Assembly (NCBI GenBank): GCA_948471095.1
Contig: CAOKRG010000025.1
Location: 1-35,858, forward strand
Direction of reading: 5' to 3'
Length of the DNA: 35,858 nucleotides
Origin: an uncultured Oscillospiraceae bacterium
Lineage (GTDB): Bacteria; Bacillota; Clostridia; Oscillospirales; Acutalibacteraceae
The notes beneath the pieces were generated by a model, which was not told the DNA's origin, ran no database searches, and was given only the letters and a program-made list of their open reading frames with translations. Positions 10,456-29,545 of this stretch are shown here, in pieces. The position numbers were made by a program, and so were the translations under genes. Numbering within the stretch: position 1 is the first letter of the stretch; every line of letters starts with the position of its first letter.

Positions 10456-11796
10456 TCACAAATAAACGCCCTGCTCCCGCAATGCGCTCCGCAGCCTCTT
10501 GACGTCAACCGACCGGGGCTGCACCCCTGTTCTTACCGCCAGCGCTGCCGCCGTGCCCGCCGCCTGACCCAGGGCAATGCAGTGGGGGATCCAGTTGGCC
10601 TCCTGGTTGGCCTCCTCGCTGGAGGAGAAACAGCGTCCCGCTGCCAGCAGGCCGTCCAGCTTCTCCGGCACCAAAATGCCATAGGGCATTTCCATGCGGG
10701 GATAGGCCTCCCGGCCGTTCACCGTGGGCAGCACGGCGACAATATCCTCCCGGCCAGTGCGCGCCCCCAGATAATCCATTGTGAAGCGCTCTACCCCTTT
10801 CAGCCGCCTGCTGCCCCGGACGCCCACCTGCGATGCAAAGTCGTACAGGTACGCGTCCTCCAGGCCGGGGAAGCTCTCCCGCAGATAGGCGATCAGCCGG
10901 TTCACGGTGCGGGTGGTGAGGAACGCCGTGTCCGTCAGCCCGGCAATGGTCATGCAGTCCCGAGGAATCAGGCTGTCCACCCAGACCACGCCGTCCCGGT
11001 TGGAGGAGATCAGCTGCATCGGGTAGCCCGCGATTTCGGCCGCTTTCCTCAGCCTCTTCCCCGCATCGGGCATATCCCTCAGGCCCTGGGCGTAGCGCTC
11101 ATAGCTCACGCCGCCCAGCCGGAACACCAACGAGGTCTTGGCGGTCCGGGCCGTGGACAGACTGGAGCTTTCGAACTCCGCCCCGGCTGTGGCAAAGACG
11201 TCGCCGTCCCCGGTGCAGTCAATGACCACCTGGGCCAGCACCGCCTTGCGCCCCTCCTTGCTCTCAAAAATTACGCCGGCCGCGCGGCCGTCCTCCACAA
11301 TGGCCCGACATCCCAGGCAGTGGCAGTACACCACTACTCCGGCGGCTTCCGTCATGTCGTTCAGCACGACCTTGAGCATTTCCGGGTCGCAGTTCACGCC
11401 GTACATAATCCTCTCGTTCCGGATAAAGAGGGTGTGGCTGCGGTACTTTGCCAGCACTGCCGGGTCGCCGGAACCGGTCTCCTCCTTTTCCGGGCCGAAC
11501 GCCCCGTTGGGGCAGGCCCGCAGGCGGCCGATCCATTCGTCCATCAGCCCTGCCACCAGCTGCTCCCTGCCGCCGTTCAGCGTTGGGTCGCTGAGGAACG
11601 GGATCAGCAGTACCTGCCCCCCCGTGGCCATGCCGCCCAAATGGGCGTAGCGCTCCAGCAGCACTACCCGTCCCGCCCCGGAATTCCGGGCCGCCACCGC
11701 CGCCGTTACCCCGGCGGGACCGCCGCCCACCACCAGCACATCGCACTGGTCATACACCGGGACCTCCCGGGCCGGCTCATAAATAGTCTGCTTCAT
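10456..11796 (-). CDS. FAD-dependent oxidoreductase (FAD_oxidored family)
   Basis: A 446-residue flavoprotein. The N-terminal Rossmann motif is DVLVVGGGPAG (GGGPAG at residues 24-29), followed by VVLLERYAHLGGMATGG, the usual FAD-contact block of this family. A late VIDCTGDGDVFATAGAEFE and C-terminal LLAAGRCFSSSEEANQE, then ALGQAAGTAAALAV, complete the fold. The ATG follows AGGAGGAAGG. Substrate unknown. It is the last gene of the - strand glycan arm, 170 bases after the mutarotase, so a role in oxidising an unusual sugar or cofactor recycling is possible but unproven. No signal peptide. Confidence 0.88.
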   Translation of the reverse strand: MKQTIYEPAREVPVYDQCDVLVVGGGPAGVTAAVAARNSGAGRVVLLERYAHLGGMATGGQVLLIPFLSDPTLNGGREQLVAGLMDEWIGRLRACPNGAFGPEKEETGSGDPAVLAKYRSHTLFIRNERIMYGVNCDPEMLKVVLNDMTEAAGVVVYCHCLGCRAIVEDGRAAGVIFESKEGRKAVLAQVVIDCTGDGDVFATAGAEFESSSLSTARTAKTSLVFRLGGVSYERYAQGLRDMPDAGKRLRKAAEIAGYPMQLISSNRDGVVWVDSLIPRDCMTIAGLTDTAFLTTRTVNRLIAYLRESFPGLEDAYLYDFASQVGVRGSRRLKGVERFTMDYLGARTGREDIVAVLPTVNGREAYPRMEMPYGILVPEKLDGLLAAGRCFSSSEEANQEANWIPHCIALGQAAGTAAALAVRTGVQPRSVDVKRLRSALREQGVYL

Positions 11797-11892
11797 AATC
11801 CTTCCTCCTATCGCAAGATGACGGGAAACGGCCCTGGATGTATGGATTTGGGCCCGCGGCCTCCGCTGGCCAGCAGCCGCGAAAAGTACCGG

Positions 11893-11926
11893 GGCCGAAG
11901 AGCCTCTGCCCCGCGGCGCTTCGGCC
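11893..11926 (-). other. Stem-loop in the mutarotase-oxidoreductase gap
   Basis: GGCCGAAG (11893-11900) pairs with CTTCGGCC (11919-11926), with further GC-rich pairing inside. It sits in the 170-base gap between the two genes. There is no T-run, so a processing or stability role is as likely as termination. Confidence 0.4.
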
Positions 11927-11966
11927 TGGGATAAGACAACACCGTGGGGCTAGATAAGCAGCCTGA

Positions 11967-12818
11967 TTACTCCTTTTCGCCGGAGCCTTTCAGCGTAATC
12001 CTCTGCCAAAGGCGTAGGCTTTCCCCCGGGGAAAGCCTACGGCACCCGGGATCGTTCAGCTGGTTCACCGGGCCGCTCTGCGGTTCCACGCAGATCCAGC
12101 TCTCCCCTTCTCGGGCAAACAGCACCCACTCGGTAAACTCCTCCGATACCTGGTAGCAAAACTCCCCGATCCGCGCCAAGCGTCCCGCGCCGCCTGCTTG
12201 AGCCGTATAGAACCCCGAGACCCGCACCCCGCGAGGGCCGCAGCCCGCCGCAATGTCCCGCTCGCCGCTGTCCAGAGGCAGCAGCCGCCCGGTGGGGAGA
12301 TAGCGTCCGTCCGTCTCCCAGCGCTGGGCGATCGGAGCCAGAAAATCCCCCGGAGCGGCAAAGGCAGTGTGAAACCCCACCTGCACCGGCATGTCCGCCG
12401 CGCCGGTGTTCTTAATCTCCGTCTCCCGCCGGAACCCATTTTCCTCCAAGCGGTCGCGCATAGTCACCCGGCAGGGGAACGGGAAATACTCCCCGGAATT
12501 TTCCAGCACCGCGGTCAAATGGCTGGGGCCGCCCTCCGCCACGGCGAACGCCGCGCCGGTGAACAAACCGTGGATATGGTTGTGCCGGGCGGGCTCCGTC
12601 AGAGGCAGCTCATAGGTCTTCCCATCAAACCGGAAGCGCCCGTCCGCCACCCGGTTGGGCGGGAACAAAAACGGCATGCCGTAAAGCACTGGCTCCGCCA
12701 TGAGGGGGGTCTCCGGCTCCCGCAGAACGGGCCGGCCCCTGTGCCGCAGGCGCAGCACCTGGGCCCCCCGCTCCGGGTCGATGGCGGCGGTCCAGTCCCC
12801 CCGGCCAAGCTCTATCAC
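11967..12818 (-). CDS. Aldose 1-epimerase (mutarotase) family protein
   Basis: Interconverts alpha and beta anomers of an aldose released by the upstream hydrolases. The family's catalytic positions are visible: RHNHIHGLF, VGFHTAF (His) and CVEPQSGPVNQLN (Glu). The true start is the GTG at 12818 with AGGAGG 5 bases upstream. It overlaps the TGA of the preceding DUF6259 gene (GTGA), so the two are translationally coupled. The protein is 283 residues; the longer open frame to 12971 is an artefact with Arg/Gly/Ala-rich composition. Cytoplasmic. The specific sugar is not predictable. Confidence 0.88.
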   Translation of the reverse strand: MIELGRGDWTAAIDPERGAQVLRLRHRGRPVLREPETPLMAEPVLYGMPFLFPPNRVADGRFRFDGKTYELPLTEPARHNHIHGLFTGAAFAVAEGGPSHLTAVLENSGEYFPFPCRVTMRDRLEENGFRRETEIKNTGAADMPVQVGFHTAFAAPGDFLAPIAQRWETDGRYLPTGRLLPLDSGERDIAAGCGPRGVRVSGFYTAQAGGAGRLARIGEFCYQVSEEFTEWVLFAREGESWICVEPQSGPVNQLNDPGCRRLSPGESLRLWQRITLKGSGEKE

Positions 12819-14911
12819 GCGTTCCTCCTGCGGAATACCTGCACCAGCAGCTGCTGAGGCTCCATGGACTCCGGCAGCGCGGGCAGCGGGCCCTCGGTGG
12901 AATCCACGCTCCCGGCCTCCCAGCCTGGAGCCTCCAGCCTCACGTCCTGGGGCCCGCCGGAATCGTTCCACAGAACCACGGCCATCCGGTCCCCGTTTTC
13001 AAAGGCTTTCGCCAGCACCGCTTCGTTTTCCCAGCGCAGCGGCAGGCCGTCCACAAAGCGCCCCAGTCCCAGCAGGTCCCAGTGGCGGCGGCGAAGGTCC
13101 CCGGCCTGTTTCGCGTAGAGGTTTTCCTGTGCGTAGCGGCCCGAGAGCACGTCGTCGCAGTCCCCGTCGTAGCGGACCTCCAGCTCGAAGCGGAAGCCAT
13201 AGGCGCAGGCATAGTTCACCGCCCGTTTTTCCAGGTAGGGCCGGGGGTTGCGGATGGTGATAATCGTCTCCGGGAAGCAGTACCGGAACAGCTCTGGGCA
13301 GTTGTGCACGCCCTTGGCGCCGCTGCCCCAATCTCCCTCGCCGCTTGGATAGGAGGAAATGCCGTGGACGCCGTCCAGATAGGCGGAGTATACGTCTGTG
13401 ATGTGCTCGGAGAAGAAGCCGTATTGGGAGTCCAGCTCCTTGGTTCGGCGCTGAATCCCGTCCATCAGCAGCTTGCGCCCGCCGGGCATGGACAGGGACG
13501 GCTTACCCTTGGGGTGGGGGTGCCGCTCGTCAAAGCAGGGGCGCGGGGGCATGCCGCCAATCTGGTCGTAGAGCACGCCGTCCGGTCCAAAGGACCGCAC
13601 CCACTCCGCCTTTTCCTCCATCAGCTCCCGCCACTCCGGGCAGCAGGGGCAGGAGGTGGCAAAGGATTTGTTGGTGAAGTATTTCAGATAAGTGCTGTTG
13701 TGCGCCTTGTTGTACCACTCCAAATAGGGGATGCCGTCCTTGCTGCGGCAGACGTATTGGTCGCCGCCGTTTTGGTAAAATTCGGTGGTGGTGTCGATGA
13801 GGTGTCCCTGGTAATACAGGGTGACGCTGCCGCCCTCCTCCTGCACCTGCCGGATCCCATCCTTGAGAGCCTGGGCCCCGCCCAGGCTCTCGCTGACCTT
13901 CAGGTCGGGGTACTGGTTGTCGTGGCCGGAATCGTACCAGCCGAACAGCCCCACGGTATCGCAGCCGGTAGCCTTGGCCAGCTCATACAGCTTGGGAATG
14001 GTGTGGTACGGCCACATCTCCGTGCCGAACTGCTGCTTCATAATCACCAGATAATAGCCGTTCATGTTCTTGACCCATTCCGGTTTTTCATGGCTGGGGC
14101 GCCAGGTTTTGGCCCACCCGGCATAGAGGTCCGCCCCCTTGTGCCAGCTCCCGGCATAGAAGCTTAGCACCGCGTCCGGCGCCTGCCAGGTTTCGCCCTC
14201 CCGCACAAAGGCCAGCTTGTCCAGCACCAGGGTAATGTCCCCCTCTGCCGTTGGCGCGCCCAGCACCCGCAGGTCCGTAACATGGTGGTCCGCATCCTGG
14301 CTCTGCAAAAACAGAGTCCTGCCGCTCCCCTCCAGAGCCATCCACTGCATGGAGGCATAGCCTGGGTAGGTGGTGCCGAACGAGCAATTACCGATCTCCC
14401 GGCTGGGGCCGAAGCCAAAGGTGGTGGATCCCACCTCGCTGTCCCCGTGGCCGGAGAGGAAGCGCCCCACGTCCGGCACCCGCATGCCGCTCTGGATGGG
14501 GAACAGCAGGTCCGGGCCGGCGCCGTCCCCTCCCAGGCTCCGCACCACGCCGATATAGGGGTACTCGAAGTCCGTGACCCAGGCGTCCGGCTCCCGGTTG
14601 TCAATTTCCGCGGAGAAGCGCAGATGCTCCCCGTCCAGCCGAACCGTAAGACGCAGGCCGATCTGAGCCGTGCCGCCGGAATATTCCAGGGTTCGGGCGG
14701 TGAACGTCACCGCGCCCGGCTCTTCGCGCACGGTGAAGCTTTGGCCGCCGCTCACCACCGTGTTCTCCCAGTTCTCCCCCTTCTTGAAGACCAGCTTGAA
14801 GCTGGTGGAGGAAGGGGCCGCGATCGCATTGCCGCCCCCCATGGACAGCAGGCTGAGCCGCGCCTGCCCGTCAAAGCCTATTTGAATGTTCTGGTTTTCC
14901 AGTTTCCACAT
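12815..14911 (-). CDS. DUF6259 glycoside-hydrolase-like protein, copy B
   Basis: 698 residues, no signal peptide. The N-terminal half is a beta-sandwich-type domain beginning MWKLENQNIQIGFDGQARLS. The central part looks like a TIM barrel: LVIMKQQFGTEMWPYHTIPK, TVGLFGWYDSGHDNQYPDLK, VTLYYQGHLIDTTTEFY and FGPDGVLYDQIGGMPPRPCF, then SEHITDVYSAYLDG. A short C-terminal beta domain follows (AVVLWNDSGGPQDVRLEAPG). Asp residues in DGVLYDQIGG and the acidic pair in SEHITD are candidates for catalysis; this is inference. It starts directly after the stop of its paralogue (TAAATG) with AGAGGTGGG upstream. An intracellular glycosidase is the likely role, substrate unknown. Confidence 0.85.
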   Translation of the reverse strand: MWKLENQNIQIGFDGQARLSLLSMGGGNAIAAPSSTSFKLVFKKGENWENTVVSGGQSFTVREEPGAVTFTARTLEYSGGTAQIGLRLTVRLDGEHLRFSAEIDNREPDAWVTDFEYPYIGVVRSLGGDGAGPDLLFPIQSGMRVPDVGRFLSGHGDSEVGSTTFGFGPSREIGNCSFGTTYPGYASMQWMALEGSGRTLFLQSQDADHHVTDLRVLGAPTAEGDITLVLDKLAFVREGETWQAPDAVLSFYAGSWHKGADLYAGWAKTWRPSHEKPEWVKNMNGYYLVIMKQQFGTEMWPYHTIPKLYELAKATGCDTVGLFGWYDSGHDNQYPDLKVSESLGGAQALKDGIRQVQEEGGSVTLYYQGHLIDTTTEFYQNGGDQYVCRSKDGIPYLEWYNKAHNSTYLKYFTNKSFATSCPCCPEWRELMEEKAEWVRSFGPDGVLYDQIGGMPPRPCFDERHPHPKGKPSLSMPGGRKLLMDGIQRRTKELDSQYGFFSEHITDVYSAYLDGVHGISSYPSGEGDWGSGAKGVHNCPELFRYCFPETIITIRNPRPYLEKRAVNYACAYGFRFELEVRYDGDCDDVLSGRYAQENLYAKQAGDLRRRHWDLLGLGRFVDGLPLRWENEAVLAKAFENGDRMAVVLWNDSGGPQDVRLEAPGWEAGSVDSTEGPLPALPESMEPQQLLVQVFRRRNA

Positions 14912-16999
14912 TTAGCCCACCTCTTTCTGATTGTACAGGATGACCATGATCGCGCCCGGCGCGATCTCCTCCGGCATGGCCTTGAAGCTCTCTGTGACCG
15001 TGGCGGCTTCCGCGAAGGCCCAGCCCGGAGCGCGGAAGCCCTCAAGAGAAATGGGCGCAGCCGTGTCGTTCCACAGGGCGGCGGCAAGCTGGCCGCCGTT
15101 CACGAAAGCCTTTGCCAGCAGGCCGGGGTTATGGTTGTCCAGCGGGTCCGTGTCCACAAACCTGCCGCGGCCCAGCACCTGCCAGTAGCGGCGGCGCAGG
15201 TCGGAGACCGCCTTGCCGTACCGCCGGTATTCCGGCCACTTGTCCGCCAGAATATCCTCCTTATCCGCCTCGTACCGCAGCTCCATTTCCAGCTTCAGCC
15301 CATAGAGGAAGCAGAAATTCGCCACGCGCTCGGTCATATAGGGCGCGGGGTTGCGCACGGTGACGCAGGTGTCCGGGAAGCAGTACCGGAACAGCTCCGG
15401 GTAGTTGGTCATCATGGGCTCGCGGCCCTCCAGGGCCCGCCCGCGCTCACCCTGGGCAAAGGGGCTGAGGAACATTCCATGCAGGCAGTCCGCGTAAGCC
15501 GAATACAGGTCCGTAACATGCTCTGTCATAAAGGCGAATTCCGGGTCGATGGCCTTGGACTTTTTCTGGATCCGGTCCAGCAGCTTTTTTCTGCCCTGGC
15601 TCATGGAGAGCGAGGGCTTGCCCAGCGCGTGGGGGTGGTCCTTATGAAAGCAGGGATAAGGGTACATGCCGCCAATCTGATCGAACAATACGCCATCGGC
15701 CCCAAAACCAGAGATGAACTCCGTCTTCTCCTCCATCAGCTCCTGCCAGGCCGGGCTGCTGGGGCAGGCGTTGGAGAACACCTTGTTGGTGAAGTGGGAC
15801 AAAAAGCGGCTCTGGTGGGCCTTGTTGTAGGCCTCGTAATAGGGCGTTCCCCAGCGGCTGACGGATTCATTGGCCGAGCCGCCGTTTTTGTAGTAGCTGG
15901 AGGTCACGTCCATCAGGTGGCCCTGGTGGTAGAGGGTGACATGCCCGCCCTCCTTCCGCACCTTTTTGATGTTCTCCATCAGGGCTTCCCGGCCGCCCAT
16001 GCTCTCGCTGGCCTTAAGGTCCGGGTACTGGTTGTCGTGGCCGGAATCGTACCAGCCGAACAGCCCCAGGGCGTCAAAGCCGTGGGCCCGTGCAAGCTCA
16101 TACAGCTTGGGGATCTGGTTGTACGGCCACATCTCCACCCCGAACTGCTGCTTGTTGATCACCAGGAAATAGCCCTGCATGTCCTCAATCCACTCCGGCT
16201 TTTTGTGCGCGGGACGCCAGGTTCCGGCCCAGTCCCGGTACTCCCGGGCGGCACGGCGCCAATCGCCGGAATACAGCGTCAGCACCACCGGCGCGGACTG
16301 CCAAAGCTCCCCTTTTTCCACAAAGGGCAGGCGGCACAGGGTCATATTCGCGGTCTCGTGGGTCTTCTGCCCTCCGATGACCCGCAGCTCCGAGGCGTAG
16401 AACATTTCATCCCGCCCGGAGAACGAGAGGGTGTTCTCCCCATCGGTCAGGGCCATCCACTGCATGCTGCCTCCGGCGGCGTGTCCGCCGGGGTAGGTGA
16501 TGGACAAGCTGTGGGGATGGGCCTCCCAGGTGGGCGGCAGATTGTCCAGATACCTGCCGATGCAGCTCACCATGGCCCCGCAGTGGTTGGGCCACAGCAG
16601 CGCCGGGGCCTTTCCCGCGCCAAGCCCGGCCACCTCGCCGGTGATGGGATAGGTAAAGTCCGTTACCAGCGCATCGGCCTGATTCTCGATCTCCGCCGTA
16701 TAGAGGAGCTGGTCGCCCTCCAGGGCCACGCGCAGGGCCACGGCAATGTCCGCCTCCACCCGCTTGGCGCGCACGCTTTTGCAGCGGAAGCAGAGGGCAT
16801 TGCCGCCCTCCTCCACCTCAAAGCTCTGTTCGCGGCCGAACACGGTGTTTTCCCAATCCGTGCCCATGCGGAACACCATTTGGAAGCTGTCCCCGGCCGG
16901 GGCCGCGATCACGTTTTCGCCGCCGTTTTTTTGAAGGGACGTCAAGCGCCCCTGGCTGTCAAATTCAGCGGTAATATAGGAATTAGTCAGCTTATACAT
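14912..16999 (-). CDS. DUF6259 glycoside-hydrolase-like protein, copy A
   Basis: 695 residues, clearly paralogous to the next gene along the full length. Same blocks: LVINKQQFGVEMWPYNQIPK, ALGLFGWYDSGHDNQYPDLK, VTLYHQGHLMDVTSSYYKNG, FGADGVLFDQIGGMYPYPCF and TEHVTDLYSAYADCLHG. No signal peptide, so cytoplasmic. The ATG at 16999 has GAGGTG about 7 bases upstream and lies 13 bases after the GH16 stop. Keeping two divergent full-length copies side by side suggests distinct linkage or substrate preferences. The known family label is a domain of unknown function; assignment as a hydrolase rests on the barrel-like motifs and context. Confidence 0.85.
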   Translation of the reverse strand: MYKLTNSYITAEFDSQGRLTSLQKNGGENVIAAPAGDSFQMVFRMGTDWENTVFGREQSFEVEEGGNALCFRCKSVRAKRVEADIAVALRVALEGDQLLYTAEIENQADALVTDFTYPITGEVAGLGAGKAPALLWPNHCGAMVSCIGRYLDNLPPTWEAHPHSLSITYPGGHAAGGSMQWMALTDGENTLSFSGRDEMFYASELRVIGGQKTHETANMTLCRLPFVEKGELWQSAPVVLTLYSGDWRRAAREYRDWAGTWRPAHKKPEWIEDMQGYFLVINKQQFGVEMWPYNQIPKLYELARAHGFDALGLFGWYDSGHDNQYPDLKASESMGGREALMENIKKVRKEGGHVTLYHQGHLMDVTSSYYKNGGSANESVSRWGTPYYEAYNKAHQSRFLSHFTNKVFSNACPSSPAWQELMEEKTEFISGFGADGVLFDQIGGMYPYPCFHKDHPHALGKPSLSMSQGRKKLLDRIQKKSKAIDPEFAFMTEHVTDLYSAYADCLHGMFLSPFAQGERGRALEGREPMMTNYPELFRYCFPDTCVTVRNPAPYMTERVANFCFLYGLKLEMELRYEADKEDILADKWPEYRRYGKAVSDLRRRYWQVLGRGRFVDTDPLDNHNPGLLAKAFVNGGQLAAALWNDTAAPISLEGFRAPGWAFAEAATVTESFKAMPEEIAPGAIMVILYNQKEVG

Positions 17000-17012: not shown

Positions 17013-17840
17013 TCATATCTCGTCGAATACCCGCACATAATCCACCATGAAGCTGTCCGGCACATGCACTCCCGCCAGGTCCTCCCGGGGGGCGTCGCCA
17101 TCCCGGTAGCCGGAGCACTCCGTGGTCAGCAGGATGAACTGGGGCGTGTGGGAGACCGGACCGTCCACATGCCAGGTCTTTTGGCCGTCCACATAATAGG
17201 TATAGCCATCGGGCCGCCAATGCAGGCCAAAGCGGTGGAAGCCGTCCTCCGTCTCCTGGATTTGGATGTCGCCGGAGCCTACATGCTCGTGCTGGACTCC
17301 GTAGCCGTTCCAGTGGTGGTTGTGGCTGATTTTTCCGTCCCGGGTGAAGTTTTCCATGACGTCCAGCTCCACCCCGGCAATCCCGGGATCCATACAGCAG
17401 CCGATGATGGGCGACTGCAGCCAGAACGCCGACCACCAGCCGGGCTGCTCCTGCAGCTTGCAGCGCGCCTCGTAATAGCCGTACCGGTGCAGGAACCGGG
17501 GCGGCTCCTGCCTGCACAGCGGCCAACTGAACTTGTTGGTGTAGAACCCCTCCCCAGCGCTCTCCACCGGGCGGTCCATATAGTTCTCGCCGGTCTGCAG
17601 CTGGGTCGAATAATACTGTCCGTCCCTTTCGATGAGCGACAACACCAGATTCCCCTTCCCGTCCAGGGCCGCGCCCTCATCGGTAAAGGTGTGGTGGCGC
17701 TTCTGCATTAAGTGCAGGCGGCAGCCCCACTTGGATGCGTCCAGCTCCGTGCCGTCGAACTCGTCCGACCACGCCAGCACCCAGGAGAAGCCCTCCGGCA
17801 GCAGACTGGATTCGTGGCCTTCTACATGAAAGTCTTGCAT
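17013..17840 (-). CDS. Glycoside hydrolase family 16 protein, cytoplasmic
   Basis: A GH16 beta-glucanase/beta-galactanase fold: WSDEFDGTELDASKW near the start, YGYYEARCKLQEQPGWWSAFWL, the catalytic ExDxxE as VELDVMENF (nucleophile and acid/base Glu), then DGFHRFGLHWRPDGYTYYVD and C-terminal DSFMVDYVRVFDE. The start is the ATG at 17840 with GGAGGG 6 bases upstream, giving 275 residues. The longer frame from 17867 covers that ribosome site. There is no signal peptide, unusual for GH16 enzymes, which are mostly secreted. The enzyme therefore should act on imported oligosaccharides. Specificity (laminarin, lichenan, agar, carrageenan or other) cannot be read reliably. Confidence 0.9.
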   Translation of the reverse strand: MQDFHVEGHESSLLPEGFSWVLAWSDEFDGTELDASKWGCRLHLMQKRHHTFTDEGAALDGKGNLVLSLIERDGQYYSTQLQTGENYMDRPVESAGEGFYTNKFSWPLCRQEPPRFLHRYGYYEARCKLQEQPGWWSAFWLQSPIIGCCMDPGIAGVELDVMENFTRDGKISHNHHWNGYGVQHEHVGSGDIQIQETEDGFHRFGLHWRPDGYTYYVDGQKTWHVDGPVSHTPQFILLTTECSGYRDGDAPREDLAGVHVPDSFMVDYVRVFDEI

Positions 17841-17896
17841 GATTTTCCCTCCGTTTTCGATTTGCATTTATTCCGCGCGGCGCATCCGCCGGCCTC

Positions 17897-19978
17897 TCAC
17901 CTGCGCTGGAGCGTCTCCCCCGTGATCTGGGTGGGGGCCTCTTCCCCGGCGCAAAGCGGATACATCCTCTCCGCCGCGTGCCTAAAGTGGGCCGTCAGCT
18001 CCGCGTAAGGCCGGTTGCACACGTCGATGGCCCCGTGGGCCATGTTTTCTCCATCGAAGCGGCCCAAAAGCGGCTGGTCGTTCATCTCAAAATAGTGAAT
18101 GCCCACGCAGTTTTTGTTGGCCATGGCCCCCTGCATGTAGAACTCGCAGGCCCTGCCCCGCTCCTCCTGGCTGCGGGAGAACCATAGCCCGTGGGCCAGC
18201 AGGCTCTTCTCGCCGCCGATGTGCCACTCGCCGATTACCATGGGCACGTCCTTATGCGCTCCGGCGGTTTCCAGGGCCTGGGCCGCAGAGGGCGCATAGT
18301 GGTTGAAGGAGAACACGTCGTAGTGCTCGCAGCCCGCCATCTCCCTGGGCCCCGCGCCCGCATAGCGCATTCCCAGATTCAGATGGTCCGGGTCCACACC
18401 AGTGAGGGCGTCCTTCAGAACCGTGATATATTTTTCCATCAGCAGGGCGTGCATGGCGGCAAAATCCTCTTTTGCCCCCGGCGCGCCCGCGTCCAGGCGT
18501 CCGGCGGGCTGGTACAAATCTTCAAAGCTGCCGAAGCTTTGCCCCCACCGGGCGTTTAACGCGCCAATATCCCGGTATTTTTCCCGCAGCCAATCCACCA
18601 GCGCGGCCTTGGAGCCGAGCCTGTCCGGGTGGGCAAACACCCGCTCCGCCAGATTGATGTAAGGCACCTTCCACTCCGGCTCGTTGTTTACAAAATAGCC
18701 GATGAGGTACGGGTTGCCCACCAGGCCGCGCAGCTGGGTTTCGGCAAATTCCTGGGCCTGGCTGCGGAACGTCTCGGAGTACACGTCCGGGAAGTCCCGG
18801 AAAATGCGCACGTCCGTACGGGGAAACTTCTTCAGCGTCCACACAAAGGGAATCCGCGCCTTTTCCAGATATTTCAGCACGTCCTCGTCCTCGTAGTTAT
18901 TCACGCCCACGCCAATGGTGTTGAAGCCCCAGCTCTTCAGCCGGGCGGTATTGATGGCCTGCCAGGCGTCCCACCAGCCGTCCCTGCCGAACACACGGAT
19001 CATGTTGGCCCTGGCGAAATTGAACATTTTCCGGTCGCGGCCCACGCCGGGGCCGTTGCGCTTGGCAAACTCCGGAATCTGGTCGGCGGTGGTCCAGGCG
19101 TCCCGGTAGGTAGGGTCCTCCGGGTCCGGCAGCCAGGAGAACAGGGTCTCCCGCCGGTCGGTGAAACCATGGACCCCCATGCGGCTGCCATAGCACATGC
19201 CGTTGGAGAAGAACGCGTAGCCGTCCGGGTCCACCAGCCACCAGCGCTTCCCGTCATGATGGGTGTGGAAGAAGCCCGTGGCGTCAAAGCGCTTTTCCAG
19301 CCAGCCTCCCCAGCGGCTCCACCCGGCGGGATATCCCGCGCTCTCCCGGGCGGCTTCACGTTCCGCCTTCAGGTAGCCGGCCAGCTGGGCTTCGCTGTGG
19401 ATTTTGGTATCCCAGTCCTTCCCCATCCACTGGCCGAACTCGTCTACCATGGGCCCGCCCTCCACGGTCATATCCGGCAGATCGTCCGTCAGATACACAT
19501 CGTAAATGGTAAGCGAGGAGAACCGGTCCCCATAGGGCGAGGAGACGGCCATCTCCATGGCGTCCATCTGCTCCACCGAGGCGGGCCGGCCGTTGGCGTG
19601 GCCCTCCAGCATGCCGCCCAGCAGCATGTCCAGATAGTAGCGCTTGGAGGCCAGCTCCTCCAGCCTTACGGCCACCTTGATCCGGCGCATGGGAAGCAGC
19701 CGGTAGGAGAGCATGTGGCGGCTCTCGCCGGACGGAATGACCTCTCCCTTGCGGTAAAACGGAAACTGAACCGAAACCACCGAGTCCATATCCGCCAGCA
19801 TGTCCACGATCAGCCACTTGTCCGCCGACCACCGCACTCCGGCCATGGCCGCGGTTTCTCCCTCGATCCGCAGCCGCACCGAGCCCTCCTGGTCCGGGGC
19901 CAGCCTTAGAACCCCGCCGGATTCCAGCACGCTCCCCCGCAGCACCTTCCATTGGTCTATCGCGATCCTTTCCTGCAC
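17897..19978 (-). CDS. Clan GH-A glycosidase, resembling GH50 beta-agarases
   Basis: 693 residues from GTG 19978. Blocks: WWLVDPDGYAFFSNGMCYGS, KMFNFARANMIRVFGRDGWW, LKSWGFNTIGVGVNNYEDED, then GYFVNNEPEWKV, whose Asn-Glu is the expected acid/base, and PMVIGEWHIGG, whose Glu is the expected nucleophile. The VDPDGY...FNFARANM...LKSWGFNTIG order recalls GH50 exo-beta-agarases, but assignment from memory is tentative. No signal peptide. A TTG at 20107 with AGGGGAG could add 43 residues, but that stretch is basic and has lower third-position GC, so it looks non-coding. It is the first hydrolase gene after the terminator that follows the binding-protein gene. Confidence 0.8.
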   Translation of the reverse strand: MQERIAIDQWKVLRGSVLESGGVLRLAPDQEGSVRLRIEGETAAMAGVRWSADKWLIVDMLADMDSVVSVQFPFYRKGEVIPSGESRHMLSYRLLPMRRIKVAVRLEELASKRYYLDMLLGGMLEGHANGRPASVEQMDAMEMAVSSPYGDRFSSLTIYDVYLTDDLPDMTVEGGPMVDEFGQWMGKDWDTKIHSEAQLAGYLKAEREAARESAGYPAGWSRWGGWLEKRFDATGFFHTHHDGKRWWLVDPDGYAFFSNGMCYGSRMGVHGFTDRRETLFSWLPDPEDPTYRDAWTTADQIPEFAKRNGPGVGRDRKMFNFARANMIRVFGRDGWWDAWQAINTARLKSWGFNTIGVGVNNYEDEDVLKYLEKARIPFVWTLKKFPRTDVRIFRDFPDVYSETFRSQAQEFAETQLRGLVGNPYLIGYFVNNEPEWKVPYINLAERVFAHPDRLGSKAALVDWLREKYRDIGALNARWGQSFGSFEDLYQPAGRLDAGAPGAKEDFAAMHALLMEKYITVLKDALTGVDPDHLNLGMRYAGAGPREMAGCEHYDVFSFNHYAPSAAQALETAGAHKDVPMVIGEWHIGGEKSLLAHGLWFSRSQEERGRACEFYMQGAMANKNCVGIHYFEMNDQPLLGRFDGENMAHGAIDVCNRPYAELTAHFRHAAERMYPLCAGEEAPTQITGETLQRR

Positions 19979-21827: not shown

Positions 21828-21856
21828 GTGTTACCTCCATAATAAAAATTTTTGGG

Positions 21857-22011: not shown

Positions 22012-22018
22012 CTCCAGC

Positions 22019-22927
22019 TTATCCCTTAACCGAACCCACCATCACACCCTTGGTGTAATATTTTTGCAGGAACGGATAAACGATCAGGACCGGTATGACG
22101 GAGACGGTGATCACGGTCATCTTCACGGTCTCCTCGGTCAGCCGCGAGGCCGCGCTCACGTCCGCCATCTCGCTGACGGTGCCGCTCTTGGCCCCCGCCG
22201 CCGCAATGAGCTGCCGAAGGAAATTTTGCAGAAGCTGCAGATTGGAGTCGTTCACGTAAAGCACATTGTCCATATAGCCGTTCCACAGGGCCACGCCGTA
22301 GAACATGGCCAGCGCCGCCAGGGCCGGGCCGGAAAGGGGCAGCACAATGTGGAACAGCACCTGGAACGGATTCGCCCCGTCCAGCAGGGCGGATTCCTCC
22401 AGAGAGGGCGGAATGGACTGGAAGAAATTGCGCAGGATGAACATGTTATAGGCGCTCATGGCCCCGGGCAGCACATAGACCCAGAAGGTGTCCAGCAGGT
22501 GAAGGTCGCGGATGAGCAGGTAGGTGGGAATCATGCCGCCGTTAAAGAGCATGGTAAAGAAGATCATCAGGGAGAAGAACCCCCGCCCTTTAAACCTGGG
22601 CAGCGACAGCGGATAGGCCGTGAGGGCCGTGAGCAGCAGGGCCAGCCCCGTGCCAATGAGGGTTTTCAAAATGCTGTTGCGGTAGCATATGTACAGCTGC
22701 CTGGTGCTGAGCAGCTGCTGGTACGAGAGCAGAGAGAACTCCCTGGGCCACAGGAAAATGCCGCCGCTCATGGACGCGTGGGAATCGGACAGGGAGTACA
22801 TGACCACGTGCCAGAAGGGATAGATCGTGATTAGAACCATCAGGCCCAGGAACGCGCTGTTGACGATCTGCCCTGCCAGCTCCCCGCCGGTGGCCTGGCC
22901 AAGCTTGCGGTGTCTTTTGTTTGCCAT
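22019..22927 (-). CDS. Carbohydrate ABC importer permease (LplC/YtcP-like)
   Basis: 302 residues, inner-membrane subunit of the oligosaccharide importer. An early GLMVLITIYPFWHVVMYSLS marks membrane segment 1. Later segments include FFSLMIFFTMLFNGGMIPTY. The cytoplasmic EAA loop that contacts the ATPase reads LEESALLDGANPFQVLFHIV then LPLSGPAL. The ATG follows AAGGAGGG. It starts 13 bases after the first permease stops, so the two are co-transcribed and probably form the heterodimeric channel. Confidence 0.93.
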   Translation of the reverse strand: MANKRHRKLGQATGGELAGQIVNSAFLGLMVLITIYPFWHVVMYSLSDSHASMSGGIFLWPREFSLLSYQQLLSTRQLYICYRNSILKTLIGTGLALLLTALTAYPLSLPRFKGRGFFSLMIFFTMLFNGGMIPTYLLIRDLHLLDTFWVYVLPGAMSAYNMFILRNFFQSIPPSLEESALLDGANPFQVLFHIVLPLSGPALAALAMFYGVALWNGYMDNVLYVNDSNLQLLQNFLRQLIAAAGAKSGTVSEMADVSAASRLTEETVKMTVITVSVIPVLIVYPFLQKYYTKGVMVGSVKG

Positions 22928-22940: not shown

Positions 22941-23906
22941 TTAAACCAGCCCGCTTTCGGGGTCGACCCGTTTCGCGATCCAGTTGGTGATGATGACCAA
23001 AATCAGCCCGGTAAAGGACTGGAACAGCCCGGCCGCCGTGGATATGCCGTATTTGCGCTCCTGCAGGCCCAGCTTATAGACATAGGTATCGATAATATCG
23101 ATCTTGGAGACAATGGCATCGTTGCTGAAGACGAAAATCTGATCGAACCCGGCATACATCATTTCGCCCACCCGGAAAATCAGCAGGACGATGATGGTGG
23201 TGCGGATACAGGGCAGGGTGATGTGCCACATCTGCTTTAAGCGGCCCGCCCCATCAATGGACGCGGCCTCATACAGCCCCTGGTCTATGCCCGTGATGGC
23301 CGCCAGGTAAACGATGGTCCCCATGCCTGCGCCCTTCCACACATGGGAGATGACGATCATGGTGCGCGCGGCGTTCTGGCTTGCCAGCAGGTTCGGCAGG
23401 GCCCCCTCATAGCCAAACAGCCCCAGCACGTCCTTCAGCGCCCCGGCGTTGGGTGAGAGGATGGCGTAAAACAGGCCGTACACCACAACCCAGGAGACGA
23501 AGTTGGGCAGAATCACCGAGGTCTGCACCAGCTTTTTCATTTTAGATGAGCGGACCTCATTGATCATAAGAGAGAGGATGATTGGAAACGGGAAGCCGAA
23601 CAGCAGCTTGGCAAAGCTGATGATAATGTTGTTTTGCAGCGCCCGGAGAAAGGCCGTGCGCCCAAACAGGTCGGCAAAGTGCTTCCAGCCCACCCAGGGC
23701 GCGTTCATTACGTCCATGCCGATCTTGAAGTCCTTAAAGGCGATGGTAACGCCATACATGGGCGCGTATTTAAATACTAAAATATAGACCAACCCCGGCA
23801 GGAACATGAGATAGAGCATCCAGTCCCTGCGCACGGTAGAGAGGAACCTGGACTTTAGGGAGGGCTTGGGGACAACGCCCGCCGGGGGCTTCGTCAAATT
23901 ACTCAT
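22941..23906 (-). CDS. Carbohydrate ABC importer permease (LplB/YteP-like)
   Basis: 321 residues, the other membrane subunit. A basic N-terminus precedes LYLMFLPGLVYILVFKYAPM, then the family block YGVTIAFKDFKI. The EAA loop reads YEAASIDGAGRLKQMWHITL. The C-terminus has GLFQSFTGLILVIITNWIAK. The ATG has AAAGGTGG upstream. First gene after the consensus promoter at 23950-23978. No ATPase subunit is encoded in the window, which is usual for this importer class that shares an MsmX/UgpC-type ATPase. Confidence 0.93.
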   Translation of the reverse strand: MSNLTKPPAGVVPKPSLKSRFLSTVRRDWMLYLMFLPGLVYILVFKYAPMYGVTIAFKDFKIGMDVMNAPWVGWKHFADLFGRTAFLRALQNNIIISFAKLLFGFPFPIILSLMINEVRSSKMKKLVQTSVILPNFVSWVVVYGLFYAILSPNAGALKDVLGLFGYEGALPNLLASQNAARTMIVISHVWKGAGMGTIVYLAAITGIDQGLYEAASIDGAGRLKQMWHITLPCIRTTIIVLLIFRVGEMMYAGFDQIFVFSNDAIVSKIDIIDTYVYKLGLQERKYGISTAAGLFQSFTGLILVIITNWIAKRVDPESGLV

Positions 23907-23949: not shown

Positions 23950-23978
23950 ATTATAAAGCCTGCGTCTTCGATTGTCAA
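23950..23978 (-). promoter_or_regulatory. Consensus promoter of the glycan importer arm
   Basis: Read on the - strand: TTGACA (23973-23978), 17-base spacer, TATAAT (23950-23955). Both hexamers match consensus exactly, so tight control by a repressor is to be expected. Start point near 23943, with a leader of about 35 bases. Confidence 0.92.
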
Positions 23979-24027: not shown

Positions 24028-24054
24028 CCAGAAACCACTCCCATGGTTTTCCTA

Positions 24055-24154: not shown

Positions 24155-24178
24155 TAAAAAATTTTTTCGAGAAAACTA

Positions 24179-24207
24179 TTGACTCCCCCGGCAATTTCCC
24201 TTATAGT
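24179..24207 (+). promoter_or_regulatory. Promoter of the isomerase gene
   Basis: -35 TTGACT (24179-24184), 17-base spacer, -10 TATAGT (24202-24207), about 50 bases before the start codon at 24258. Confidence 0.82.
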
Positions 24208-24257
24208 ATTTTCAAGCAACCATAACGATGCTTTACTGAAAGGGCGGAGGATTTCCT

Positions 24258-25679
24258 ATGCAAAAAGCAAAAATGGGCGTGCTGCTCATCGCCACGGGCC
24301 GGTTTTACCACCTGGGCGAAGAGACGCCGCAAGGCAGCTATCACCAGCGCAAAAGCAAAGAGGTTCGGGAGTATATGGAAGCCATGGAGGAGTTCTGCAC
24401 CCCCGTGGGCCTGGGCCGTCCGGCCTACACCAGAGAGGACCTGGCCGAAGCGCTGTCCCTGTTCCAGCAAGAAAAGGTAGATTGCGTGTTCGCCGCGTTC
24501 CTCTCCTGGACGGAGGACTTCCTGTGGGCGCGCTTCCTGCGGGACGTCGGCCCCGTGCCGGTGCTGTACGCCATGCGGGTGCAGGAATCCATTGATTTTG
24601 AAAACACGGAGGATGAATCTGATTTTGTAGAGTTCCTCTCCGCCGGCGGGCTGGTGGGCACGTTGGAGGGCTCCGGCAGCGTGGGGCGCTTTCGTCCGGA
24701 GATGTTTGAGACGGCGGTGGGCGCCCTGCCCCAGCTGATGGATAAAGCGAAATCTTTCTGCGCGGCGGCGGCCATGCGGTCCCGGCTGCGGCAGTCGGTG
24801 TTCGGGCTGCTGGCCAGCTACAACGAGGTGATGTGGTCCACCTACGTGGACCCCTACGCCCTGTTCCAAAAGGCTGGGCCGGAGCTGCGCTTCCTCTCGG
24901 TGGCTACCCTGGCCCAAGAGGTGGAAAAGGTCCCCGGGGAGCAGGTGAAGCGGGCCTGCGGCATTTTGCGGGAGCGCTATCCCGTGCTGCCCGATGTGGA
25001 CGAGGCGAAATTCGAGGCCTCCATGCGGGCCTCCATCGCCCTGGAGAATGCAGGGCGCAGCGTGGGCGCGGACATGGTCGTGCTCAACGACGTGGACCCG
25101 GTGCTCCTTACGGAGCTGGGCCTGCGCCCCGGCTTCCTCCCCACCCCGGTGGGCGGCGATGTGCCCGTGGTGCCGGAGGGGGACATCGGGGGCGGTCTGG
25201 CGGTGTATATTCTGCGGGAGCTGACCGGAAAGCCGGTGAGCTTTATTGAGCCGTTCCACATGGACCTGCCCAACAACTGCTTCGCCGGCGGACATGCCGG
25301 CCCCAACGACTACACCGATCCGGCAGGTTCGGTGATGATCGCCCGGGACGTGCGCTTTGCCAAAACCGCCTATAAAAACGCGGGCGCGCCCTTTGCCTGG
25401 TACCTGATCCCGCCCGGGCGCAAAACCATGCTGCATATCTCCCAGAAGGACGGCGGCTTCAAAATGGTCTGCGGCCTGGTGGACGCCCTGCCCGCCAAGC
25501 ACTTCATTACCTCCTATTCCCACGGGCTGTTCCGCCCGGTGGACCAGGACATGCCCTCGTTCTTCCACAAGCTCATCCAAGAGGGCGTCACCCAGCACTA
25601 TGCCGTTGCGGAGGGCGACCGCACCGCCGAGCTGGAATCCCTGGCGGGCCTCTGCGGCTTTTCCTTTGTCCGGCTGTAG
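24258..25679 (+). CDS. L-fucose/L-arabinose isomerase family protein
   Basis: 473 residues, likely a cytoplasmic metal-dependent aldose-ketose isomerase. The N-terminal domain (GVLLIATGRFYHLGEETPQG) and the central VDCVFAAFLSWTEDF segment fit the FucI/AraA fold. The C-terminal half has the family's metal-site region around PVVPEGDIGGGLAVYILREL and the late HMDLPNNCFAGGHAG. The ATG has GGAGG about 8 bases upstream. It stands divergent from the importer arm. Its exact sugar is unknown; fucose, arabinose or a modified sugar are all possible. The gene stops with TAG, used here as a normal stop. Confidence 0.82.
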   Translation: MQKAKMGVLLIATGRFYHLGEETPQGSYHQRKSKEVREYMEAMEEFCTPVGLGRPAYTREDLAEALSLFQQEKVDCVFAAFLSWTEDFLWARFLRDVGPVPVLYAMRVQESIDFENTEDESDFVEFLSAGGLVGTLEGSGSVGRFRPEMFETAVGALPQLMDKAKSFCAAAAMRSRLRQSVFGLLASYNEVMWSTYVDPYALFQKAGPELRFLSVATLAQEVEKVPGEQVKRACGILRERYPVLPDVDEAKFEASMRASIALENAGRSVGADMVVLNDVDPVLLTELGLRPGFLPTPVGGDVPVVPEGDIGGGLAVYILRELTGKPVSFIEPFHMDLPNNCFAGGHAGPNDYTDPAGSVMIARDVRFAKTAYKNAGAPFAWYLIPPGRKTMLHISQKDGGFKMVCGLVDALPAKHFITSYSHGLFRPVDQDMPSFFHKLIQEGVTQHYAVAEGDRTAELESLAGLCGFSFVRL

Positions 25680-25926: not shown

Positions 25927-25950
25927 ATACTTGAGTTGGAGGTCACATTT

Positions 25951-27798
25951 ATGAGTTTCATGTTCAATCCTTACCCCTATGACGATCCGGACGCCGTTAA
26001 CCACGTAGCCATTTCCGCCGGACTGCGGGAGGCCGTTACCACGGATACCGCCGCTACCGCCCGCCGGGTGCTGGCGGACGCAAAAAAGCTCATTGCGGAT
26101 AAGGGACGCTGCGTGCTGGGCATTGACGGCTATGTCAGCGCCCCCATGGACCGCCTCCGGGGCCTCATTGAGCTGCTGGCCGCCACCGAGGGCGTTACGG
26201 CGCGGAGCCTCTCCACCGCCGGGCTGTATCTGCCCGAGGACGCGCTGCACGACAAGCTCCTCCCCTATCTGCCCGAGGACCGGGAGACCGACCCGCCCCT
26301 GCTCTATGGCCGCCTCTACAAGGAGGGCCTCGAGGGGCTGATGGACCCGGAAAAGATCAAGGCGATGGCGGCGGAGGTGGAGGAATTCCGCCGGTCCGGC
26401 CAGGGCCTGCTGATTCTCTTTGGCAACGGCGCGCTCATCGACGCCCTGCTGCCCTTGTGCGGCCTGCGGCTCTTCATCGACATGACGCAGAAGCGCACCA
26501 TCTTAAACATCCGCAGCGGCTCCGCCGGAAACCTTGGCTTCACGGAGCGCCGCTCCCCCAACGAGATGATCCGCCACAGCTACTATGTGGACTTTGAGGC
26601 CCTGATGGCCCACCGCGGCCGTCTGGCCCGAGAGGAGAAGATCGACTATTACCTCACCGGCGATGACCCGGACAAAATCCAGGCCCTGCCCATCCCCGCC
26701 CTGAAAGAGCTGTTCGGGGCCATGGTGCGGCAGCCCCTGCGGTGCCGCCCGGTCTACATCGAGGGGGTATGGGGCGGCTTCTATGTAAAGCGCCTGCGCC
26801 ACCTGCCCGATGAGATGAAAAACTGCGCCTGGGTGTTCGACCTGATCCCCATGGAGGTTTCCATCGTGGCGGAGGACCGCGGCCTGGAGCTGGAGTTCCC
26901 GTTCTACTTCTTCGTGCAGATCACCGGCGAAAAGCTGATGGGTCGAAAGGCCCACCAAAAATTCGGCGGCTATTTCCCCATCCGCTTCAATTACGACGAC
27001 ACCTACCACTCCAGCGGCAACATGTCCATCCAGTGCCACCCGGACGGAGACTATGTCCGGGAAAACAACGGCGAGCTGGGCCGGCAGGACGAGAGCTACT
27101 ACATGGTGGTCACCGGCCAGGAGGCCAAGACCTACTGCGGCTTCCGCAAGGATGCGGACGTGGAGGAGTTCATCGAGAAGGCCCGCCGGGCCGAGAAATA
27201 CGGCGAGGGCTTCGACCACGACCAATACGTCTACTCCGAGCCCTCCCGCCCGGGCATGCAGTTCCTGATCCCTGCCGGGACCATCCACGCCTCTGGCCGC
27301 AACCAGCTCATTTTGGAAATCGGCAGCCTGACCATCGGCTCCTATACTTATAAGATGTACGACTACATGCGCAAGGATCTGGAGGGCAATCTGCGGCCCA
27401 TCCACACCTACCACGGCGACAAGGTGCTGCGCCGGGACTTCCGGGAGCCCTGGGTCAAGGAGAACCTGATCCAGCAGCCCCGCACCCTCCGGGAGGGCGA
27501 GGGGTTTGTGGAGACCATTGTGGGCGAACACGGCCTGCTGTACTTCAGCCTGCGCAATGTGCGCTTCCCGGATCGCTACACCGATGAAACGACCGACCGC
27601 TTCCACGTGCTGGTGCTGGTAGAGGGCGAGCGGTGCCTGATCCGCTCCCTGACAGACCCCAGCAAGAGCTTTACCCAGAATTACCTGGACATGGTGATCG
27701 TCCCGGCGGGCTTTGGGCCCTATGAGGTCGTCAACCAGGGGGTGGGCGTCGTCACCATGCACAAGACCCAGCTGAAGGACGGCTTCGAAAATGAGTGA
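25951..27798 (+). CDS. Fusion of a degenerate nucleoside/phosphoribulokinase-like domain with a class I mannose-6-phosphate isomerase-like domain
   Basis: 615 residues from ATG 25951 (GGAGGT 7 bases upstream); an in-frame TTG at 25936 would absorb the ribosome site. The N-terminal 200 residues recall uridine kinase/phosphoribulokinase proteins. However, the P-loop position reads CVLGIDGYVSAPMD with no GxxGxGKS/T, so phosphate transfer seems lost. The C-terminal part has the type I PMI cupin ligand blocks: MSIQCHPDGDYVRE, ESYYMVVTGQE and FLIPAGTIHASGRNQLILEI followed by YKMYDYM. These residues bind the catalytic metal in PMI. Probable role: isomerising a phosphorylated sugar made by the ROK kinase. 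Its stop overlaps the ROK start by 8 bases. Confidence 0.82.
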   Translation: MSFMFNPYPYDDPDAVNHVAISAGLREAVTTDTAATARRVLADAKKLIADKGRCVLGIDGYVSAPMDRLRGLIELLAATEGVTARSLSTAGLYLPEDALHDKLLPYLPEDRETDPPLLYGRLYKEGLEGLMDPEKIKAMAAEVEEFRRSGQGLLILFGNGALIDALLPLCGLRLFIDMTQKRTILNIRSGSAGNLGFTERRSPNEMIRHSYYVDFEALMAHRGRLAREEKIDYYLTGDDPDKIQALPIPALKELFGAMVRQPLRCRPVYIEGVWGGFYVKRLRHLPDEMKNCAWVFDLIPMEVSIVAEDRGLELEFPFYFFVQITGEKLMGRKAHQKFGGYFPIRFNYDDTYHSSGNMSIQCHPDGDYVRENNGELGRQDESYYMVVTGQEAKTYCGFRKDADVEEFIEKARRAEKYGEGFDHDQYVYSEPSRPGMQFLIPAGTIHASGRNQLILEIGSLTIGSYTYKMYDYMRKDLEGNLRPIHTYHGDKVLRRDFREPWVKENLIQQPRTLREGEGFVETIVGEHGLLYFSLRNVRFPDRYTDETTDRFHVLVLVEGERCLIRSLTDPSKSFTQNYLDMVIVPAGFGPYEVVNQGVGVVTMHKTQLKDGFENE

Positions 27799-28663
27799 GC
27801 CCTGCATTTTGGCGGTGGACGCGGGCGGCACGTCCCTCAAGGCCATGTTGGTCCGGCCGGAGGGCGGTCCGGTTCCCGGCAGCTTTTTGCAGGTCCCGGT
27901 CGATTCCCAGGGGGCCGCGCGGGAGATCGCCGGAGCGTACCGGGCGCTGGCGCGGGCGGCGCGGGACGCTTCTGGCGAGGCCGGGCTGAGCGTTGCGGAG
28001 GTCAAGGTGTGCATCCCCGGGCCGTTCGACTACGCCGCGGGCATAAGCCGCATGAGGCACAAATACCAGAGCGTCTATGGAGCCCCTATGCGCCCCTGGT
28101 TTCAGGAGGCGCTGGGGCCGGTCCCTGTAAGCTTCCTCCACGACTCCACCGCGTTTCTGCTGGGCGCGGCAACGGAAGAGGACCTGCGCCGCCACCAGCG
28201 GATTTGCGGGGTGATTCTGGGCACGGGGCTGGGCTTCGCTTCCATGTATAACGGCAGAATGAACCTAACCCCCCAGGGCGGCCCGGGAATCAGCGTTTTT
28301 GCCCGGCCCTACCGGGACGGCTCCGCCGAGGATTATGCCTCCCGCCGGGCGGTGGAGAACGCCTATGCCCGCCTGCGCCCCGGCAGGCCCGTTCCCACGG
28401 TGAGGGAAATCGCCGGGCTCGCCGCTGCCGGAGACCCCGGCGCCGCCCGGTGCTTCGAGGAGCTGGGCCGCTGCCTGGGGGAGATTTTGCGGGATATTCT
28501 GGAAGAGGAGGGGTTCACCCTGCTGCTTTTGGGCGGGGCGATCTCCAAATCGGCGGGGCTGTTCCTGCCCGCGCTGTCCGGCTCCTTAAAGGGGCTGGCC
28601 GTGGAGGCGCGCCCGGCGGAGGACATCGACCTGGCGCCGCTGCTGGGCGCGGCACGGGCATAA
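27791..28663 (+). CDS. ROK-family sugar kinase-like protein
   Basis: 290 residues. The N-terminal phosphate loop is ILAVDAGGTSLKAML, followed by KVCIPGPFDYAAG, a sugar-contact SFLHDSTAFLLGAA (Asp as likely catalytic base) and the adenosine loop ICGVILGTGLGFASMYNG; the late LLLLGGAISKSAGLF completes the fold. The zinc-binding CxCGxxGC motif of most ROK proteins is absent. There is no N-terminal HTH, so it is a kinase, not a ROK repressor. It overlaps the fusion gene (ATGAGTGA), implying translational coupling and related substrates. Confidence 0.85.
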   Translation: MSEPCILAVDAGGTSLKAMLVRPEGGPVPGSFLQVPVDSQGAAREIAGAYRALARAARDASGEAGLSVAEVKVCIPGPFDYAAGISRMRHKYQSVYGAPMRPWFQEALGPVPVSFLHDSTAFLLGAATEEDLRRHQRICGVILGTGLGFASMYNGRMNLTPQGGPGISVFARPYRDGSAEDYASRRAVENAYARLRPGRPVPTVREIAGLAAAGDPGAARCFEELGRCLGEILRDILEEEGFTLLLLGGAISKSAGLFLPALSGSLKGLAVEARPAEDIDLAPLLGAARA

Positions 28664-28687
28664 AGACCACACGAAAGGAGCCGTCCT

Positions 28688-29545
28688 ATGGCTGATTGCT
28701 GTTTGAAGCTAAAAGAGAGAATGGGGTCCCTGACCATCAAGGAGCAGCAGGTTGCCACCTTCATTCTGGACTACCCGGAGGAGGTCATCAATATGTCCAT
28801 CAACGACCTGGCCGACTCCTGCGGGGTCAGCGTATCGTCGGTGGTGCGGCTGTGCAAGTCCATTGGGTACTCCGGCTATAAGGAGCTGTGCCGCATGCTC
28901 TCCGCCGACCTGTTGATGAATCAGCAGGAATCGGTAACCTATGAGGACGTCCGGCCGGGAGATTCCATCGAGGCCATTATGCGCAGCGTCTGCCTGGCGG
29001 ACATGAAAGCCATCGAGAGCACCATGTCCCTCATCGACACGGCCGAACTGGAGCGGGCGGTGGACCTGATCTCCAAGGCCCGGCGGGTGGACTTTTACGG
29101 CGTGGGCACCTCGGGCTATGTGGCCATGGACGCGCGCAACAAGTTCCTGCGGATCAACAAGGTATCCATGCCCTCCGCCGACCCCCACGACCAGATTTTG
29201 TGCGCCTCCACCCTAAAGCCGGAGGACGTGGCCGTAGCCATCTCCTACACCGGCGACACCAAGGACATTTTGGAAACGGTGGGCATTATCAAGCGTACCG
29301 GGGCCGCGCTGATCTCCATTACCCGCTATAACAAGAACCCCCTGGCCCAGCAGTCGGATTTGCAGCTTTACACCGCCTCGCCGGAAACGATGGTGCGCAG
29401 CGGGGCCATGGGGTCCCGGATCGCCCTGCTGGCGGTAGTGGACGTGCTCTACACCTGCACCGCCAGCCGCAACTACGAGGATGTGAAAAAGTCCCTGGAC
29501 AAGTCCCGGCTCATTACCGCCCGAAAGCATATGCAGCTCAATTGA
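28688..29545 (+). CDS. MurR/RpiR-family transcriptional regulator
   Basis: 285 residues: an N-terminal HTH domain (LTIKEQQVATFILDYPEEVI, then INDLADSCGVSVSSVVRLCK) and a C-terminal SIS sugar-phosphate-binding domain (VDFYGVGTSGYVAMDARNKF, then AVAISYTGDTKDILETV and LISITRY). It is read after the isomerase, PMI fusion and ROK genes with AAAGGAG upstream, so it probably controls this locus in response to a phosphorylated sugar. The mirror-image GAAA...TTTC motifs at 24006-24027 and 24134-24154 are candidate binding sites. Ends with TGA before a terminator. Confidence 0.93.
   Translation: MADCCLKLKERMGSLTIKEQQVATFILDYPEEVINMSINDLADSCGVSVSSVVRLCKSIGYSGYKELCRMLSADLLMNQQESVTYEDVRPGDSIEAIMRSVCLADMKAIESTMSLIDTAELERAVDLISKARRVDFYGVGTSGYVAMDARNKFLRINKVSMPSADPHDQILCASTLKPEDVAVAISYTGDTKDILETVGIIKRTGAALISITRYNKNPLAQQSDLQLYTASPETMVRSGAMGSRIALLAVVDVLYTCTASRNYEDVKKSLDKSRLITARKHMQLN

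Follow-up and report, generated by a model that had tools for sequence, protein, structure and literature searches.

The window, by which we mean the whole 35,858-nucleotide stretch analysed here, is an entire contig (C25) of the 2.5-Mb draft genome (86.6% complete) of an uncultured Oscillospiraceae bacterium. Its positions 10456-29545 hold a cluster of thirteen genes, named A to M, in two divergent arms. From the centre outward, the left arm (minus strand) encodes the importer permeases I (22941-23906) and H (22019-22927), both BPD_transp_1; the importer solute-binding protein G (20238-21827; SBP_bac_8, 2e-13) with a signal-like N-terminus; a GH50-type enzyme, F (17897-19978); a GH16 enzyme, E (17013-17867); two DUF6259 proteins, D (14912-16999) and C (12815-14911); an aldose 1-epimerase-type mutarotase, B (11967-12818; Aldose_epim, 1.3e-26); and an accessory FAD-dependent oxidoreductase, A (10456-11796; PF12831, FAD_oxidored, 2.5e-74). 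The right arm (plus strand) carries the isomerase J (24258-25679), the phosphomannose isomerase (PMI)-domain protein K (25951-27798), the ROK family kinase L (27791-28663) and the RpiR-type regulator M with its SIS domain (28688-29545). Likely starts of F (19978), B (12818) and K (25951) were chosen from ribosome-binding sites and relatives. Pfam, similarity or fold matches recovered every gene that the first-pass annotation had listed for this interval, including the ROK kinase (Pfam ROK, 4e-12) and the RpiR regulator (RpiR HTH plus SIS). No gene for an importer ATPase was found within the locus. Two tRNA-Leu genes (taa and tag; 8434-8520 and 35627-35709) flank the cluster on both sides.

Promoter-like sites of both arms face each other between I and J: TTGACA-17-TATAAT for the left arm (23950-23978, minus strand, 12/12 consensus positions) and TTGACT-17-TATAGT for the right arm (24179-24207, plus strand, 10/12). 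Such sites are generally not rare (10 versus 4.9 expected). Of the candidates for a shared operator, a 19-mer that lies upstream of the left-arm promoter has a single match in the window and was dropped, and a 13-mer with three matches versus 0.45 expected, a number reached in 2 of 100 shuffles, is suggestive at most. Between G and F lies an inverted repeat (20161-20207) whose 16-nt arms are 94% complementary and which may be a terminator or a processing hairpin. Positions 21856-22012, between G and H, hold a 157-bp element that is bounded by perfect 14-bp terminal inverted repeats and by its sequence resembles a MITE or REP; 9 of 29 genus genomes, the source genome among them, contain similar DNA, in part as short fragments.

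A predicted isomerase in its own clade and a PMI-domain protein probably paired with a ROK kinase

J is predicted to adopt the L-arabinose-isomerase (AraA) fold, as the first-pass label of a FucI/AraA-like isomerase had implied, and forms a clade of its own on that fold. No Pfam family matched J, the AraA_N model (PF02610) included, and PF02610 has no match anywhere in the source draft genome. The metal ligands of AraA are Glu, Glu, His and His; E307, H346 and H447 of J align with them in 10, 11 and 11 of 11 AraA rows, and E331, shifted by one column in the automatic alignment, lies in our reading within a matching F-x-E segment. These alignment counts and the tree, in which a long branch sets J apart as a clade, include L183 (apparently a wrong open frame, which joins J) and the long branches L161 and L156; all three were left out of the F-x-E comparison. 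Thus J shares the whole fold and the metal-ligand positions of the AraA/FucI/SftI superfamily, but differs from it by an identity of 12-17% to AraA structures, by its long-branch clade and by the missing PF02610 match. Against the SftI model NF048012 it scores 23.8 bits versus a cut-off of 700. This weak match means little, since SftI-like matches at E 1e-6 are common in the class (162 of 291 genomes, none above the cut-off), and a sulfoquinovose route was rejected because J lies far below the SftI cut-off and in a different clade.

Residues 262-491 of K match the phosphomannose isomerase 1qwr (E 8.1e-11), the C-terminal half also matches 1zx5 (E 3.8e-7), and the metal-ligand positions of the PMI domain are invariant in 15 sequences. 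K therefore shares domain and metal ligands with class I mannose-6-phosphate isomerases, an activity that is predicted only, yet it carries about 250 additional N-terminal residues and scores 18.9 bits against the class I model, below the cut-off of 116.2. Of the proposed kinase-like/PMI fusion only the PMI part stood: no match was found for the N-terminal half, and the Walker A motif GxxxxGK[ST] is absent from 15 of 15 sequences, which argues against a P-loop kinase there.

K has a match in 10 of 29 genus genomes, and apart from the source genome only G023 (86%) and G004 (81%) exceed 33% identity. K-like proteins of the genus have various other sugar genes nearby: in G005 these encode a ROK-like protein and a GH38-type enzyme, in G016 a GH42-type enzyme, and in G009 a ROK protein and a cupin resembling glucose-6-phosphate isomerase. 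Such surroundings suggest that K and L act as a pair of kinase and 6-phosphate isomerase. Three loci of the genus (L140, L142, L144), where a K-like protein and a ROK-type gene occur alongside a cupin glucose-6-phosphate isomerase-like gene and a cellulase-like protein (PF12876), perhaps represent a related pathway; the Pfam assignments there come from individual members of just L142 and L144.

J, K and L form a core conserved across three phyla

In the named genome collection, a J profile built from four sequences matched 148 relatives, of which the best 80 were used. Phyla, set from record titles, comprise 14 Bacillota, 63 Bacteroidota, 2 Spirochaetota and 1 without assignment; L047 and L139 are probably one contig, as are L056 and L043/L044, judged by their equal lengths. 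Genes were counted per locus by tblastn, as open-frame calls picked antisense frames in GC-rich loci, and J is present in each locus by selection. K was found in 74 of the best 80 loci, L in 71 and all three genes together in 71, spanning Bacillota, Bacteroidota and Spirochaetota, whereas five control genes to the right of the cluster reached 1, 0, 0, 0 and 3. The hydrolases were sparser (DUF6259 in 25, GH50 in 10, GH16 in 4, any of these in 28), as were the regulator (12) and the mutarotase (3). By these counts the core consists of J, K and L, and the hydrolases vary from locus to locus.

Gene order confined to this strain had been named beforehand as grounds against the locus. It proved wider: L048 has C to M arranged as in the window (with C truncated at the edge of the piece), and two genomes of the same genus, G004 and the one-contig genome G023 (A-B-C-G-H-I-J-K-L-M), carry most of the arrangement. 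The divergent layout also recurs in L048, L056 and G023, and ABC importer genes adjoin J, K and L in 10 of the 14 Bacillota loci. In a class sample of 391 genomes, five, the source included, match J at E 1e-15, two of them at 21% only. Gene A is present in G023 (81%) yet in 0 of the 80 J loci by tblastn, so the FAD oxidoreductase, which the first-pass annotation had counted as part of the set, is there as an accessory gene and not as a core member. Its description of one 19-kb divergent unit accordingly holds for the divergent arms and only partly for the single unit, given the distribution of A and the inverted repeat between G and F. A PADLOC assignment of A as LmuA was discarded: the match (E 1.3e-4) covers just residues 17-53, which match nucleotide-binding models as well.

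Loci of other phyla carry other transporters: 60 of the 63 Bacteroidota loci contain an MFS transporter, the members tested resembling galactonate carriers, and L067 places K, L, one TRAP transporter and J in a single gene run, with the TRAP gene between L and J, a gene pattern repeated in L069, whose transporter would be of this type too. Galactonate-type MFS carriers and TRAP transporters usually carry acids. Phosphoesterases also lie near J in Bacteroidota (L060, L062, L086, L095 and others), of the endonuclease/exonuclease/phosphatase type in 9 of 63 loci and of the calcineurin type in 5 of 63, and perhaps hint that the target contains a phosphodiester. In L028 (1380-7632) of G310, the neighbours of a GH50 relative (48-50%) are a galactonate dehydratase (above cut-off), a GH39-like enzyme, an SDR enzyme and a gene resembling metal-dependent hydrolases, perhaps an oxidative route.

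Searches for mobile carriers gave little. The GH50 query had 0 matches in viral_contigs and the J profile matched 1 contig; a J-K-L set (34-42%) stands at 73-4195 of L187, a 39,751-base IMG/VR contig that is perhaps a bacterial fragment sorted as viral. J had no match in 72,556 plasmid records, and GH50 matched 4, all below 60% identity; in one of these, H1 (Paenibacillus), J-K-L is absent from the surroundings. Spread by viruses or plasmids was therefore set aside.

Hydrolases of the left arm and their predicted location

F matches the solved beta-agarase 5z6p over residues 317-717 (E 1.1e-54) and has both catalytic Glu, in NEP and IGEW motifs, and E combines a Pfam GH16 match (9.5e-15) with the ExDxxE catalytic motif (ELDVME at residue 167), in agreement with the GH50/GH-A-like and GH16 enzymes called at first pass. 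F shares its catalytic half and both Glu-bearing motifs with GH50 beta-agarases and beta-1,3-glucanases. According to PMC11079163, the GH50 family reportedly holds two beta-1,3-glucanases and a beta-galactosidase, so membership does not imply agar. Agar as the default substrate is weakened by this breadth and by E, whose top solved matches are beta-1,3-glucanases.

The DUF6259 pair C and D (48% identity; Pfam E-values 3.5e-31 and 7e-28) was approached through a structure model of C (pLDDT 88.7), which has a GH129-like fold. Its two best structural matches are a gut galactosaminidase and the GH129 alpha-N-acetylgalactosaminidase NagBb, it also matches DagB of Zobellia, and the top matches span the full length; on the strength of this model DUF6259 is probably an alpha-glycosidase. 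It has in common with NagBb and the GH129-like DagB the full-length predicted fold and a GWxxxGxDNxxPD segment, but its sequence-profile match to NagBb is not significant (E 0.12) and its activity is predicted only. Among the 63 Bacteroidota J loci, DUF6259 occurs in 15 (16 with the window queries instead of a Bacteroidota query, both by tblastn) and GH127 in 17, never together, and 31 have neither. According to PMC5698469, GH127 and the GH129-like DagB, from unrelated families, share a single activity in the Zobellia carrageenan locus. By analogy, and since they never co-occur, DUF6259 and GH127 are perhaps interchangeable, and either may release the same sugar in Bacteroidota J loci; the exclusion could also stem from common ancestry of rumen loci. 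In G389, a 1068-aa protein with a metallo-beta-lactamase domain and, by eye, a signal-like N-terminus lies between two DUF6259 genes (L041, 3637-6843).

Signal-like N-termini were scored with a 12-residue hydropathy window, a proxy rather than SignalP. By this measure no value above 1.16 was obtained near the N-terminus of C, D, E or F, against 3.0 for the binding protein G, in line with the earlier claim that no hydrolase here has a signal peptide. All nine Bacillota DUF6259, GH50 and GH16 proteins, four from the window and five relatives (three DUF6259, two GH50), are without such N-termini, whereas 8 of 8 Bacteroidota proteins examined have them. Hydrolase location thus tracks cell type, and from these sequences cytoplasmic hydrolysis looks like the ordinary Bacillota arrangement and not a strain oddity: the set appears all-cytoplasmic by the hydropathy proxy, as first described, and is less unusual in this than the first description made it. 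With a single GH16 match (E itself) and a single GH50 match at E 1e-20, no secreted enzyme of either family is visible in the 86.6% complete draft genome. Three sulfatase-family matches lie on other contigs.

A proposed sugar route and its alternatives

We consider it rather probable that the locus as a whole serves oligosaccharide scavenging and catabolism. Starting from what was observed, namely gene content, predicted folds, conserved catalytic positions and a J-K-L set found together in three phyla, we infer every reaction, the order of steps and the role of the regulator. The ABC importer would take up short glycans with an ATPase that must come from elsewhere in the genome, GH16 and GH50 would cut beta-linkages inside the cell, and the DUF6259 pair, of the GH129/DagB structural group, would remove an alpha-linked sugar. 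Mutarotase B would speed anomer exchange, J as a metal-dependent aldose-ketose isomerase would take the released sugar or sugars toward metabolism, the ROK kinase L and K as a PMI-type hexose-6-phosphate isomerase would complete sugar entry, and the RpiR regulator M would control the locus. A narrower proposal, which we hold tentatively and at slightly under even chances, is that J-K-L is an undescribed monosaccharide route present in three phyla, with J as a new AraA-fold isomerase family, partly fed by DUF6259 as a new alpha-glycosidase family.

The main difficulty is that J, L and K acting in line on one aldose would yield the 6-phosphate of its C2 epimer, which gives ordinary hexoses no entry into glycolysis. 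Either a further enzyme encoded elsewhere closes this gap, or K has a different role, or J and K-L serve two sugars of one glycan. The last option, in which L and K would convert a mannose-like hexose to fructose-6-phosphate and J would handle a second sugar that then passes to general enzymes, avoids a line ending outside central metabolism and fits the finding that in this genus K-like proteins adjoin ROK-type genes where J is absent, in one case together with a GH38-type enzyme. We give it roughly one chance in three or a little less, as J, K and L occur together in 71 of 80 loci from three phyla and the uninterrupted K, L, TRAP transporter and J run of L067 suggests a single imported compound.

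Readings that name the glycan fare less well. A red-algal galactan of the agar or carrageenan type, whose beta-galactosidic bonds would be cut by GH16 and GH50 and whose alpha-linked (anhydro)galactose would be removed by DUF6259, is unlikely: the window genes include no match to an anhydrogalactose dehydrogenase or cycloisomerase (Pfam, NCBIfam), most of the 80 loci come by their titles from gut, rumen and other non-marine sources, and the breadth of GH50 and the beta-1,3-glucanase matches of E weigh against it as well. For a host-type glycan (mucin, blood-group or poly-LacNAc), on which GH16 and GH50 would be beta-galactosidases and DUF6259 would remove alpha-GalNAc or alpha-GalN, speak the two best structural matches of DUF6259, but it is the less likely of these two, because J-locus carriers include Ruminiclostridium cellobioparum, Mariniphaga and Arenibacter, which we take to be soil and marine organisms, no amino-sugar deacetylase or deaminase matched among the window genes, and J would be left without a clear role. 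That the arms are merely unrelated sugar genes facing each other by chance would accommodate hydrolases that differ between loci, the unconserved gene A and the inverted repeat between G and F; with importer genes beside J, K and L in most Bacillota loci and the divergent layout repeated in three other places, we regard it as very improbable.

The oligosaccharide scavenging locus that we favour resembles Gram-positive ABC-importer polysaccharide utilisation loci, which likewise have a binding protein, two permeases but no ATPase, cytoplasmic glycosidases and a local regulator; it differs in its J-K-L and DUF6259 processing set, for which the accessible parts of the open-access literature searched describe no counterpart. 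Within the same material no function is described for J or DUF6259 and no pathway with exactly this set, as the first-pass annotation had supposed, although the individual parts fall in known folds. The J-K-L set turns up in bacteria as unlike as Bacillota, Bacteroidota and Spirochaetota and may therefore mark a sugar pathway that is widespread. If the proposal is right, J, K and DUF6259 would be three protein families of a sugar pathway in gut, rumen, soil and marine bacteria, a probable alpha-glycosidase family would join the GH129/DagB group, and identifying the sugar would give many loci an annotation in one step.
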